Shown here piece by piece: positions 59,175 through 64,000 of a stretch of DNA of 64,000 nucleotides (position 1 is the first letter of the stretch; each line of letters opens with the position of its first letter). The notes beneath the pieces are model-generated. The model had not been told where the DNA came from. It saw only the letters and a program-made list of their open reading frames with translations, and made no database searches. Location of the stretch: NCBI RefSeq assembly GCF_014208035.1, contig NZ_JACHMK010000001.1:1798001-1862000 (forward strand), in the 5' to 3' direction. This DNA comes from Schaalia hyovaginalis (GTDB taxonomy: Bacteria > Actinomycetota > Actinomycetes > Actinomycetales > Actinomycetaceae). Position numbers and translations under genes: made by a program.

Positions 59175-60200
59175 TCAGCGGGCGGCGGAGCCGTCCGTGT
59201 AGTCGGCATCGCCGCTCGTCCAGCCGAAGGCCGCGCGGAGCTTCTGCCCGGTCTTCTCGATCGGGTGGTTCTCGCCCTCGGCGCGCAGCGCCTTGAACTC
59301 GAGGCCGCCGTTGTCCTGGTCGGTGATGAAGCGCTTGGCGAAGGTGCCGTCCTGGATGTCGGTGAGGACCTCCTTCATGGCCTCCTTCACCTGCGGTCCG
59401 ATGACGCGCGGGCCCGAGACGTAGTCGCCGTACTCGGCGGTGTCCGAGCAGGACCAGCGCTGCTTGGTCAGGCCGCCCTCGTTGATGAGGTCGACGATGA
59501 GCTTCATCTCGTGGCACACCTCGAAGTAGGCCATCTCCGGCATGTAGCCGGCCTCGGTGAGGGTCTCGTATCCGTACTGGATGAGGCGCGAGACGCCGCC
59601 GCAGAGCACGGCCTGCTCGCCGAAGAGATCCGTCTCGGTCTCCTCGGTGAAGGTCGTCTTGATGACGCCGGCGCGGGTGGAGCCGATGCCCTTCGCGTAG
59701 GAGAGGGCCAGCTCCCAGGCCGCACCGGACGCGTCCTGCTCGACGCAGACGAGGGCGGGGACGCCCTTGCCCTCGAGGAACTGGCGGCGCACCGTGTGAC
59801 CCGGGCCCTTCGGGGCGACCATGCAGATGTCGTGGCCCGCCTCGGGGGCGATGTAGCCGTAGCGGATGTTGAAGCCGTGCGCGAAGAAGAGCGAGGTGTC
59901 GGGCTTGAGGTTCGGGGCGATCTGCTCGGCGTAGACCGTGCGCTGCACCTGGTCGGGAAGGAGGATCATGATGACGTCCCCCTCCTTCACCGCCTCGGGG
60001 ACGTCCTTGACCGCGAGTCCGGCGGCCTCCGCCTTCTCCCACGAGGACGAGCCGGGGCGGAGGCCGACGACGACCTCGACACCGGAGTCCTTGAGGTTGA
60101 GCGCATGGGCGTGGCCCTGGGAGCCGTAACCGATGACGGCGACCTTCTTGGACCGGATGATCGACAGGTCCGCCCCGTCGTCGTAGATGATCTCGGCCAT
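59175..60200 (-). CDS. ilvC: Ketol-acid reductoisomerase
   Basis: This class I enzyme of 341 residues performs the rearrangement and NADPH reduction in valine and isoleucine synthesis. [21 protein letters not shown] is the cofactor fold, LRPGSSSW the phosphate loop, [20 protein letters not shown] a substrate block, and [10 protein letters not shown] with [14 protein letters not shown] hold the metal-binding acids. The start MAEIIYDD at 60200 is spaced eight bases from AAGGAG. An ATG two codons earlier is too close to that site. It begins two bases after ilvN. Confidence 0.96.
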
Positions 60201-60202
60201 TG

Positions 60203-60715
60203 TCATTTCTCCTTCAGTTGATCCGTGATCGAGCGAGGACCGCGGCCGATCGCCACGGCGCCCGACTGGACGATTTCGGTCACGCCGTACGGCTCGAGGG
60301 CCGCGACGAGCGCTTCCAGTTTGGACAGCGAGCCGATCGACTCGATGACGACGGATTCGGGCTGCACGTCGACGACGTGGGCGCGGAACAGGTCGACGAC
60401 CTGGAGGACGCCGGTGCGGCGCTCCTCATCGGCGCGGACCTTGATGAGCAGGAGGCGGCGCTCGACCGAGTCCTCGGCGGCCAGTTCGACGACCTTGAGG
60501 ACGTTGACGAGCTTGTTGAGCTGCTTGGTCACCTGCTCGAAGGGCTGCTCGTCGGCCTTGACGATGATCGTCATCCGCGAGACCTCGGGGTGCTCGGTCT
60601 CACCGACGGCGAGGGACTTGATGTTGAAGGCGCGGCGCGCGAAGAGGGCGGCGACCCGCGTGAGGACGCCCGGCTTGTTCTCCACGAGCACGGACAGCGT
60701 ATGCGTCTGGGTCAT
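60203..60715 (-). CDS. ilvN: Acetolactate synthase small (regulatory) subunit
   Basis: This 170-residue regulatory subunit has an N-terminal ACT domain ([28 protein letters not shown], then [11 protein letters not shown]) that binds valine for feedback control. A C-terminal domain ends in [20 protein letters not shown]. The start is three bases after the ilvB stop, so translation is coupled. It sits in the middle of ilvBNC. Confidence 0.96.
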
Positions 60716-60718
60716 CGC

Positions 60719-62488
60719 TCAGTCCTCCACATCCCAGTCGGGCGCCATTCCCTTGGCGTAACGGATCTCGTCGTTGGACACTCCCGCGGCGACCATCGGC
60801 CACACCATCGAGTCCTTCGAGACCCTGAAATCGATGAGAACCGGCCGGTCGTTGATGGACATCGCCCATTCGATCGCCTCATCGACCTCGTCGATCGAGC
60901 GGACGGTGCGCGCCGCCATCCCGTAGGCGGTGGCGAGCATCTCGAAGTTGGGGATCTGCTCGCCCTCGACGGGGTTGAGCGTCGTGTTCGAGTAGCGCTT
61001 CCCGTAGAACAGGGACTGCCACTGGCGCACCATGCCGAGCACGGAGTTGTTGATGAGGCAAACCTTGATCGGGATGTTGTTGACGGTGCAGGTCGCGAGC
61101 TCCTGGTTCGTCATCTGGAAGGAGCCGTCGCCGTCGATCGCCCACACGACCTTGTCCGGCTGCCCGACTTGCGCGCCCATCGCGGCCGGGATGCAGTAGC
61201 CCATGGTGCCCAGGCCCGAGGAGGAGATGAAGTGCCGGGGCTTCTCGTATTCGATGAACTGCGCGGCCCACATCTGGTGCTGGCCGACGCCGGTCACGTA
61301 GACGGCTTCGGGGCCGACGATCCTCGACAGTCGCGTGAGGACGTCCTGCGGGGCCATCATTGCGTCTTCGGAGTCCGTCCAGCCCATCGGGTATCGCTCC
61401 TTGAGCCGGTCGAGGTAGCGCCACCAGCCGGAGAGGTCCTGCGCCCCGTCCTCGTCGCGCATCTTCTCGACCTCGTCGGCGAGGATCGGCAGGGCGGTGG
61501 CCAGGTCGCCGACGATCGGAACATCCGCGTAGCGGTTCTTCGAGATCTCCGCGGCGTCGATGTCGATGTGGACGACGCGGGCCCTGGGGGCGAAGGAGTC
61601 AAGGCGTCCGGTCACGCGGTCATCGAAACGCGCGCCGAGGGCGACGATAAGGTCGGACCTCTGCAGGGCGCCGACTGCGGCGACCGTGCCGTGCATCCCC
61701 GGCATGCCGAGGTTGTGGCGGTCCGAATCGGGGAAGGCTCCGCGCGCCGGCAGGGTCGTCACGACGGGGGCGTCGCTCGCCTCGACGAGGCGGGCGAGGG
61801 CGTCGGAGGCTCCGGAGCGGATGAGGCCGCCGCCCACGTAGAAGACCGGCGCCTGGGCGCGCAGGATCGCCTCCGCCGCGGCCTTGATCTGCTTCTTATG
61901 CGGCTTGCCGGCCACCTTGTAGCCGGGCAGGTCCATGACGGGCGGCCACGAGAATTCCATCGTCGCCGTCTGCGCGGACTTGGTGATGTCGACGAGGACA
62001 GGGCCGGGGCGCCCGGTGGAGGCGATTTCGAAGGCCTCTGCGAGCCGGGAGGGGATCTCGGCGGCATCTGTCACCAGGAAGGAGTGCTTGGTCAGCGGCA
62101 TGGCCGCGCCGACGATGTCCGCTTCCTGGAAGGCGTCGGTTCCGATGAGGGAGGCGCCCACCTGGCCGGAGATCACGACCATCGGCACCGAATCCATGTT
62201 GGCGTCCGCCAAGGCGGTGAGCACGTTGGTGGCCCCGGGGCCGGAGGTGACGATCGCGCACCCGGTCTTGCCCGTCGCCAGGGCGTAGCCTTCAGCGGCG
62301 TGTCCGGCGCCCTGCTCGTGGCGCACGAGGATGTGCCGCAGGGACGAGCTCATCAACGGGTCGTAGGTGGGAAGGATCGCGCCGCCGGGCATTCCGAAGA
62401 CATCGGTCACGCCGATCGCCTCCAGGCTGGCGACGATGGCCTGCGCGCCGGTCATCGTCCGGGGCTGGGCAGTGGGTGTGTCGTTCAC
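60719..62488 (-). CDS. ilvB: Acetolactate synthase large subunit
   Basis: This thiamine-diphosphate and FAD enzyme of 589 residues makes acetolactate or acetohydroxybutyrate. [16 protein letters not shown] and the catalytic Glu in [16 protein letters not shown] are present, as are [32 protein letters not shown] and [15 protein letters not shown] with the ThDP metal motif. The GTG start was chosen because AGAGAGGA lies seven bases upstream. The preceding 160 bases contain a leader peptide and attenuator, so expression responds to branched-chain aminoacyl-tRNA supply. Confidence 0.95.
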
Positions 62489-62509
62489 CGCGTGGTCCTC
62501 TCTTGATGT

Positions 62510-62602
62510 GGATGGATCCCAAGAAAAAATCCCCAGCCGCCGGTGCGAGTTGGGGAGGGGCGTGCGATCCATCCGTTGTCACGCGGCAGGAATCGCACGC
62601 CC
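62510..62602 (-). promoter_or_regulatory. ilvBNC transcription attenuator
   Basis: Three stems compete on the minus strand. Stem 1 pairs 62592-62602 with 62558-62568 (11 bp, GGGCGTGCGAT). Stem 2 pairs 62566-62574 with 62510-62518 (9 bp, GGATGGATC) and would disrupt stem 1 and enclose the terminator. The terminator hairpin pairs CCCCA with TGGGG across 62531-62555 and is followed by ATTTTTTC (62523-62530). Stem 1 lies partly in the leader peptide codons. Confidence 0.8.
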
Positions 62603-62650
62603 GGGTACGAGGACCGAGGCGAGAATTCCAACCGAGAGAATGTCGAGCAC
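62579..62650 (-). CDS. ilvL: ilvBNC leader peptide
   Basis: This 23-codon frame starts with GTG and reads MLDILSVGILASVLVPGRAI then PAA. Eleven of the 23 residues are Ile, Leu or Val. The last Ile codon lies within the 5' arm of the first attenuator stem, so ribosome stalling there would change the RNA fold. TACGGT (62657-62662) lies six bases before the GTG, so the mRNA would be leaderless and no ribosome site is needed. Too short to be found by length alone, it is supported by composition, position and the RNA structure behind it. Confidence 0.8.
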   Translation of the reverse strand: MLDILSVGILASVLVPGRAIPAA

Positions 62651-62656
62651 GCTTCT

Positions 62657-62662
62657 ACCGTA
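62657..62662 (-). promoter_or_regulatory. -10 element of the ilvL-ilvBNC promoter
   Basis: TACGGT on the minus strand, six bases before the leader GTG, repeats the spacing seen at several other starts in the window. Confidence 0.5.
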
Positions 62663-62838
62663 GGCCCCGCGGCTTTCACGACTCGTGATGTCTCACACTT
62701 CGGAACTTGCGCGTCCTCGCCGATTCCGTCGGCCCGCCCTCGGTGCTGCGAGTCGAGTGACGGGCCGCACAGCCCTTCGTCCTTCGAGGGGCCGGGGTCC
62801 TGGGACGATGGGCCAACTCGGAGACGAAGACGATCCCG

Positions 62839-62844
62839 GATAAT
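62839..62844 (+). promoter_or_regulatory. -10 element of the AspT-like gene
   Basis: GATAAT sits in CGATCCCGGATAATGAGAGG, closely resembling the promoter segment duplicated before the helicase gene. It lies 43 bases before the GTG start, so this mRNA would have a short leader. Confidence 0.4.
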
Positions 62845-62886
62845 GAGAGGGATTCGTCGACAACACGAGACTTGGAGTCCACGACT

Positions 62887-64000
62887 GTGGAAACGGTTTT
62901 CACCCTACTGGCAGAGCAGCCGGTCCTCTTCCTGTTCATCCTCATCGGCATCGGCATGGCCTTCGGCCATATCAAGATCAAGGGCATCGGCCTCGGCGCC
63001 GCCGCCGTGCTCTTCCTCGCGATCATCCTCGCGGCCTGGGCCCAGTCCTACGGTGTTGAGCTGCGCGTGACCCCGCAGCTGGGCACTCTCGGCCTCACGC
63101 TCTTCACCTTCGCGATCGGCATCAACTCCGGTTCCTCCTTCTTCCACAATCTGAAGACGGCGATCGGTCCGATCCTCGCGGTCGTCGTGCTCTACATCCT
63201 CGCCGCGGGCGCCGGCCTCGCCATCGGCAAGGCCATGGGCATGGACATCGCCCTCATCGCCGGCACCTTCGCGGGATCCGTGACGAACACTCCCGCCCTG
63301 GCGGCAGCCGGTGACGCGAGCGGTCAGCTCGACCGCGCCACGGTCGGCTACTCGATCGCCTACCTCTTCGGCGTCATCGGGATGCTCGCCGCATCGATGG
63401 CGGCGCTATCCTACGGCAAGAACGACCGCGACACCCCCTCGCCGCTGGCGAACCGCACGATCCGCGTCGAACGCGACGATCACCCCTTCGTCGGCGACAT
63501 CTACGAGAAGCTCGGCTCGAAGGTCACCTTCTCCCGCCTCCGTCGCGGTGAGACCGGCCCGATCACCCGCCCCTCGATGTCCGACACCCTGGACGCCGGA
63601 GATCTCGTCACCGTGGTCGGCCCGCGCGAGCTCGTCGCCCGCGCCGCCACGGAGCTCGGCCACGCCTCTTCGCACTCGCTCATGCAGGACCGCTCCTACC
63701 TGGACTTCCGCCGCATGACCGTTTCGGATCCGAAGGTCGCCGGCCGCACGGTCGCTGAACTCGATCTCGCGAAGAAGTTCTCCGCGACGATCTCGCGCGT
63801 CCGCCGCGGCGACGTCGACATGATCGCCGAGCCGGGCCTGGTCCTCCAGCAGGGCGACCGCGTCCGCATCGTCGCACCGACTTCGAAGATGAAGGCGATC
63901 ACGAAGTTCTTCGGGGACTCGGCCCGCGGCCTGTCCGACCTCAACCCGATCGCCCTCGGCATCGGCATGGCCATCGGCATCGCGATCGGCGAGCTCCCGA
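62887..64000 (+). CDS. AspT/YidE/YbjL-type transporter, 3' end outside window
   Basis: This member of the aspartate:alanine exchanger family is visible for 371 codons. The first membrane domain (residues about 10-180) contains FTFAIGINSGSSFFHNL and FAGSVTNTPALAAAGD, the G-S-x-T-N-T-P-A-L signature. Two TrkA-C (RCK_C) domains follow, ending GDLVTVVGPREL and GDRVRIVAPTSK. The second membrane domain is just starting (NPIALGIGMAIGIAIGELP) at the window edge. GTG start; GGAG lies about nine bases upstream. Substrate unknown, possibly a dicarboxylate or amino acid. Confidence 0.85.
   Translation, partial: METVFTLLAEQPVLFLFILIGIGMAFGHIKIKGIGLGAAAVLFLAIILAAWAQSYGVELRVTPQLGTLGLTLFTFAIGINSGSSFFHNLKTAIGPILAVVVLYILAAGAGLAIGKAMGMDIALIAGTFAGSVTNTPALAAAGDASGQLDRATVGYSIAYLFGVIGMLAASMAALSYGKNDRDTPSPLANRTIRVERDDHPFVGDIYEKLGSKVTFSRLRRGETGPITRPSMSDTLDAGDLVTVVGPRELVARAATELGHASSHSLMQDRSYLDFRRMTVSDPKVAGRTVAELDLAKKFSATISRVRRGDVDMIAEPGLVLQQGDRVRIVAPTSKMKAITKFFGDSARGLSDLNPIALGIGMAIGIAIGELP

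Follow-up and report, generated by a model that had tools for sequence, protein, structure and literature searches.

A well-conserved leader-peptide attenuator probably controls ilvBNC in Schaalia hyovaginalis

The ilvBNC operon of Schaalia hyovaginalis is preceded by an ordinary yet well-conserved actinobacterial ilvB leader-peptide attenuator. A short open reading frame (ORF) rich in codons for branched-chain amino acids (BCAA), together with an intrinsic terminator, probably turns on ilvBNC when valine, isoleucine or leucine is scarce. The leader, the first stem (P1) and the terminator are all kept in the 34 ilvB orthologues of the genus. We consider it highly likely, on the basis of sequence and conservation, that the element attenuates ilvBNC transcription by way of a translating ribosome, in the layout of the ilvB leaders of other actinobacteria. 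A known regulatory layout is thereby extended to another actinobacterial genus.

Methods

The window is the whole stretch of 64,000 nucleotides that was analysed, and positions refer to it. The genes ilvB, ilvN and ilvC were named by NCBIfam models, each scoring above the cut-off of its model. The genus set comprised 35 genomes, 34 of them with an ilvB orthologue; the remaining genome (G129), which carries only paralogues of at most 27% identity, was left out. Family matches were found in 121 genomes, and the loci used were 30 (7 from the genus and 23 others) plus 56 further family regions, with the remaining lower-ranked ilvB matches left out of the locus set. The stretches used were the best 80 of 595.

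Genus counts for folds, GTA codons, stem distance and spacing used leaders from a first rule, which scores a -10 hexamer. A second rule, blind to the -10, accepted ORFs with at least four Ile, Leu or Val residues in six codons and a stop 10-110 nt before five T. Under this blind rule 128 of 194 loci qualified, leaving 104 distinct leaders once duplicates were removed. Of the 66 loci dropped, 63 lacked such an ORF, among them two genus loci (L132 and L133) in which a leader is present by alignment; the other three had little upstream sequence or low identity. The blind rule also mispicked in places, taking another frame at L128, a start too far upstream at L131 and, at loci such as L099 and L100, ORFs other than those of the first rule. 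The counts over 104 leaders, and over the 83 leaders from outside the genus, thus contain some wrong picks, which are expected to dilute a real signal.

Covariation was assessed on alignment A1 (34 genus sequences, 33 distinct). Partition-function folds were computed for all 34 leaders with the ribosome placed before the stem, at GUA or at the stop codon.

Results and Discussion

A conserved leader, stem and terminator

An earlier note on this DNA had described a complete ilvBNC attenuator, and most of its parts are in place (Table 1). The GTG frame of 23 codons runs from 62650 to 62579 on the minus strand, an 11-bp stem starts in its last codons, a terminator hairpin with a T-run lies before ilvB, and TACGGT (62662-62657) stands six bases before the leader GTG. 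The peptide is MLDILSVGILASVLVPGRAIPAA if its GTG start stands for Met. Ile, Leu and Val then make up 10 of the 22 residues after the start, and the difference from the 11 counted in the note is that GTG codon. A BCAA-rich leader precedes ilvB at 34 of 34 genus loci, and the frame, whose loss in relatives the note had named as telling against its reading, is kept at every one of them.

Table 1. Features of the ilvBNC leader region and operon (positions in the window)
Feature	Position	Strand	Basis or remark
TGAGA block, possible operator (putative)	62691..62695	-	34/34 genus loci
-10-like hexamer TACGGT	62657..62662	-	TANNNT conserved; six bases before GTG
Leader ORF, GTG start, 23 codons + TGA (62581-62579), V(M)LDILSVGILASVLVPGRAIPAA	62579..62650	-	sequence; conserved
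Codon 15, GTA (Val), proposed key stalling codon	62606..62608	-	conserved; rare in ilvB, ilvN, ilvC and leuB
P1 5' arm, codons 17-21	62590..62602	-	pairing, covariation
P1 3' arm	62558..62570	-	pairing, covariation
Intrinsic terminator, TCCCCA (62556-62551) / TGGGGA (62535-62530) + six T (62529-62524)	62524..62556	-	sequence; conserved
GATCCATCC, 3' arm of 9-bp match, judged outside the switch	62510..62518	-	partner 62574-62566
GAGAGGA, Shine-Dalgarno-like site of ilvB	62496..62502	-	sequence; between terminator and ilvB
ilvB, acetolactate synthase large subunit	60719..62488	-	NF005860, 983.7 bits vs cut-off 881; GTG start at 62488
ilvN, acetolactate synthase small subunit	60203..60715	-	NF008864, over its cut-off
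ilvC, ketol-acid reductoisomerase	59175..60206	-	NF004017, over its cut-off

ORFs of 8-40 codons with a TANNNT hexamer 6-7 nt upstream number four on the two strands of the 64-kb window, and only the ilvB leader among them has at least 40% Ile, Leu or Val; it also has a T-run downstream. The combination of leader, -10 hexamer and Ile/Leu/Val content exceeds chance. A search of 61500-64000 with Rfam covariance models returned no match up to an E-value of 1. On the plus strand, a divergent frame with a TTG start (62872-63999) carries an AspT/YidE/YbjL antiporter duplication domain and runs off the window end; it shares its intergenic region with the ilvBNC promoter.

Watson-Crick pairing in P1 spans 11 bp (62602-62592 with 62568-62558) from codon 17 onwards, and with G-U pairs allowed the helix extends to 13 consecutive pairs (62602-62590 with 62570-62558), enclosing the stop codon in its loop. 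The stem is conserved with covariation. Across A1 its 16 pairs are formed in 94.1% of cells, as against 27-44% when one strand is slid by 1-3 columns. Four pairs are changed on both sides (shuffle mean 1.3; four reached by 9 of 500 shuffles), and none of 500 shuffles reaches the covariation score, with 9 of the 16 pairs uninformative because they never vary. By anchored counts, 27 of 30 distinct core sequences form 10 or all 11 of the outer pairs. Outside the genus, a contiguous helix of at least 7 bp spans the stop codon in 73 of 83 other leaders, and goes beyond the leader's own shuffles in only 43 of the 83. The terminator helix has 4 to 8 contiguous bp in the 30 distinct core sequences, a count made on anchored sequences because A1 is one column out of register there for the window row. 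A T-run of at least five follows at all 34 genus loci.

A GUA codon ahead of the stem

In all 34 genus leaders, GUA is the BCAA codon that comes last ahead of the stem, and 4 nt separate it from the GGCG arm. Each of the 30 distinct genus leaders carries one GTA or more, as do 68 of 83 other distinct leaders; codon usage in ilvB would give 2.4 and 9.4, respectively. Among the 37 other leaders that have both a GTA and a stem beyond their own shuffles, the distance from GTA to stem is 2-8 nt in 29. By comparison, GTA accounts for a single one of the 139 Val codons in the window's ilvB, ilvN, ilvC and leuB. A tRNA search of the genome (49 places, all scanned with ARAGORN) gave one gene each for tRNA-Val with the anticodons CAC, GAC and UAC. 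Ile codon choice is likewise shifted within the genus, with ATT at 63% in the leaders and 21% in ilvB.

Position by position, codon 15 is GTA in each of the 22 distinct genus leaders of 23 codons. Codons 18, 19 and 21 are also invariant but lie inside the stem, whereas GTA precedes it. Codon 14, the BCAA codon just before GTA, is variable (ATC in 13, CTC in 6, CTT in 3). Given this variation, and the place of GTA outside the stem, a constraint on the codon is likelier than an RNA-sequence constraint on the whole run. The rare Val codon GUA is thus a likely key stalling site, or sensor, as judged from codon conservation. Among the papers listed by a literature search on this subject, no title or abstract opening claims phylum-wide conservation of GUA, and the available parts of the cited papers do not state it either.

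Proposed mechanism and the search for an antiterminator

Under attenuation by a translating ribosome, transcription would start at or next to the leader GTG, and a ribosome would load on the free mRNA 5' end. Scarcity of charged tRNA (Val-tRNA UAC above all, and also those for Ile and Leu) would hold this ribosome at codons 13-15, where it would cover the P1 5' arm, so that termination would lessen and ilvBNC would be transcribed. With the A site at codon 15, an assumed downstream footprint of ~12 nt would suffice to cover that arm. Were amino acids plentiful, the ribosome would instead reach the stop codon in the P1 loop, covering the loop and part of the P1 3' arm, and the terminator would act. 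Such a geometry of ribosome and stem resembles that of trp-type leaders.

In the folds, the terminator has mean probabilities of 0.99, 0.97 and 0.97 with the ribosome before the stem, at GUA and at the stop codon, respectively. One leader alone, L114, drops below 0.8, to 0.44 in both the GUA and the stop-codon states. As long as GGGG has yet to be transcribed, the CCCC arm is paired at an average of 0.18, 0.23 and 0.33 in the same three states. A pairing of the Corynebacterium type, in which the P1 loop pairs with the 3' shoulder of the terminator (after Narunsky et al.), is unsupported across the genus: its nearest equivalent, GAUUCCUG with UGGGGAUU (CCUG:GGGG), is formed in 81.8% of cells, no better than the 82.0% of shuffled sequences. 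A pairing of GGA on the P1 3' side with UCC of the terminator was likewise set aside, as the folds show no consistent sequestering of the CCCC arm; the A1 count for this pairing is unusable, since the window row is misaligned in the columns concerned. None of the candidates tested is kept genus-wide as a classical trp-type antiterminator that would exclude the terminator. Equilibrium folds and conservation tests thus found no antiterminator holding across the genus, a search that a transient structure could escape.

This result speaks for a reading in which the leader is translated and the terminator is present, but control does not depend on alternative RNA structures: stalling would alter the coupling of ribosome and RNA polymerase, or RNA polymerase pausing, or else the terminator would be constitutive and partial, with a transcription factor acting at TGAGA. 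The motif TGAGA(C/T), mostly inside TRTGAGAY, is indeed invariant at -45 to -47 from the leader start at 34 of 34 genus loci. Of 52 other loci with a TANNNT hexamer, 13 have the start of TGAGA at -56 and 8 have the motif between -50 and -38; the two places, -45 to -47 and -56, lie about one helical turn apart, an offset that suggests a binding site for a regulator. Changes to the control codons of the Streptomyces coelicolor ilvB leader, as quoted in Seliverstov 2005 (PMC1262725), had no effect, which would also fit. Against it, unless stalling depends on the codon one can hardly account for an invariant GUA that keeps a constant distance to the stem, and leaders of two other actinobacteria are reported to respond to control-codon changes. 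In Corynebacterium glutamicum, Val-to-Ala changes in the leader remove valine-dependent expression and a change of the start codon lowers expression (PMC11857589), and for the Mycobacterium tuberculosis ilvB1 uORF, replacing LVVI by AAAA abolishes induction in reporters (PMC13236596). In a Corynebacterium ulcerans reporter, one Val codon changed to Glu made no difference (PMC10272879). Weighing these points, we regard control through coupling, pausing or a partial terminator as unlikely, and codon-dependent attenuation as the better account.

Probable leaderless translation of the leader peptide

The earlier note had inferred from the TACGGT hexamer that the leader peptide is translated from a leaderless mRNA, and this is well supported by the spacing of TANNNT and the rarity of an upstream Shine-Dalgarno (SD) site. 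In the genus, TANNNT lies 6 nt from the leader start in 23 loci and 7 nt in 11, a 34 of 34 count that is partly circular because starts were chosen by a score that includes the -10. Among the leaders picked blind to the -10, TANNNT stands 6-8 nt from an in-frame start in 67 of 104 distinct cases; shuffling the upstream sequence leaves 6.9 such leaders on average and 15 at most (200 rounds). Several of the remaining leaders, including those of Streptomyces, have a weaker -10-like hexamer in the same place (by eye, uncounted). An SD-like core precedes the leader start, within 12 nt, in 2 of 34 genus loci; around the ilvB start, where the stretch examined was a longer one of 36 nt, it occurs in 29 of 34.

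The leader thus has the sequence marks of a leaderless mRNA, namely a -10 hexamer 6-7 nt from the start and no Shine-Dalgarno site, and its peptide very probably starts at the mRNA 5' end. Under the strict TANNNT rule the same is probably true of most leaders examined (67 of 104 distinct). The alternative, an upstream transcription start with the leader ORF lying behind an ordinary 5' UTR, seems to us very improbable, given the -10-like hexamer at 6-7 nt in all 34 genus loci and an SD-like core before the leader in only 2 of them. The leaderless reading draws on conservation and also on published 5' ends: Streptomyces lividans TK24 ilvL is reported to be transcribed leaderless (PMC8079986), and the +1 of C. 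glutamicum ilvBNC is reported one nucleotide from the leader ATG (PMC11857589). Leaderless translation of the leader is already known for actinobacterial attenuators and is not a new situation. Leaderless mycobacterial polycysteine short ORFs are reportedly cysteine-responsive attenuators, to go by the title of a 2020 report by Canestrari; these are leaderless attenuators likewise, but for cysteine and in other operons.

The 9-bp stem

A 9-bp alternative stem overlapping the first had completed the switch in the earlier note. The match exists (62574-62566 with 62518-62510), but neither an antiterminator role nor genus-wide conservation holds up. Its 3' arm lies past the U-run, with its start 6 nt beyond the terminator's final U; at the moment of the termination decision it has yet to be transcribed, and it cannot compete before the terminator acts. 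Across A1 the stem is paired in 61.5% of cells; shuffled partners reach 60.3%, and a slide of one column still leaves 57.1%. All nine pairs form in 3 of 23 distinct sequences and at least eight in 8 of 23 (any register, within 36 nt after the T-run), and fewer than 5% of shuffles do as well in 5 of the 23. Position past the U-run and failed conservation across the genus rule it out as an antiterminator; it is common to some near relatives and is not a genus feature, as far as the aligned sequences go. That the stem is real and acts after read-through, for instance on mRNA stability or ilvB translation, is the least probable account we considered, with a very small chance of being right: its covariation score is matched in just 16, and its number of cells changed on both sides in 20, of 500 shuffles, and five sequences beat 95% of their shuffles, but its pairing barely differs from that of shuffled partners, slid versions covary more (0.094 and 0.125 vs 0.060) and 15 of the 23 distinct sequences fall short of eight pairs.

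The check that the note had proposed, folding and covariation in relatives, thus comes out in favour of P1, which covaries, and of the terminator, which forms, and against the 9-bp stem. Its description of the attenuator as complete finds no support, since the 9-bp stem fails and no other antiterminator was found.

Comparison with other actinobacterial leaders

Published systems are compared here as described in the parts of the cited papers that were available. The locus has the features of actinobacterial ilvB attenuators: a BCAA ORF, an intrinsic terminator and a conserved stem starting from the last leader codons. It shares with the predictions of Seliverstov 2005 the short ORFs with Ile, Val and Leu codons before terminators; that work names ilvB leaders for Corynebacterium, Mycobacterium and Streptomyces, calls the mode of ilvB regulation unclear and, in the part available, states no ilvB antiterminator (PMC1262725). 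A link from stalling to termination with no findable antiterminator is a gap noted for ilvB leaders in 2005 (PMC1262725). S. lividans ilvL/ilvBHC has the same BCAA leader upstream of ilvB, followed by hairpins and a U-rich stretch, and its ilvL has 13 residues, compared with 23 codons and a longer N-terminal part here (PMC8079986).

In the Corynebacterium ilvB-II leaders, the leader overlaps P1 and a terminator, P2, follows with a U-run (PMC10272879). The order of elements is the same here, by comparison with that paper's description alone, and in both the BCAA codons fall mainly at four positions. The ilvB-II leaders usually have 15-17 codons, as against 23, and their uORF spans most of P1, whereas here only the last codons enter the stem (PMC10272879). 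The antiterminator proposed for ilvB-II, in which the right shoulder of P2a pairs with the P1 loop (PMC10272879), has as its nearest counterpart the CCUG:GGGG pairing described above. In the C. glutamicum model a boundary GCC is shared by antiterminator and terminator (PMC11857589), whereas 3-5 nt separate the P1 GCC from the CCCC arm in the genus studied here. The M. tuberculosis ilvB1 leader likewise has a BCAA uORF, GUA drawn as a regulatory codon and a terminator; it differs in its control codons, LVVI, and in that anti-terminator and terminator are proposed to be mutually exclusive (PMC13236596).

A tentative possibility, on the doubtful side, is that a single rare codon does most of the sensing in actinobacterial ilv attenuators: a GUA kept just ahead of a long stem in much of the phylum and served by a single-copy tRNA-Val(UAC). 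In the genus studied here, the stalled ribosome would on this view govern termination with no classical antiterminator whose pairing excludes the terminator.

The leader attenuator may not be universal, because the blind rule found none before a T-run in 66 of 194 loci, a count to be read with the genus members that the rule also missed. Loci of Mycetocola, Microbacterium, Curtobacterium and Gryllotalpicola (for example L016, L017, L019, L025 and L028) are among those in which the automatic rule found no BCAA leader before the T-run, which may reflect loss, another form of control or a miss by the rule. Very short leaders of 8-11 residues, such as MEKILVVVM and MTTLLVVIN, occur in some relatives, at L149, L167-L170, L172 and L185. 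At two of these loci, L172 and L185, the stem begins only at or after the stop codon, so the geometry of leader and stem varies within the family.
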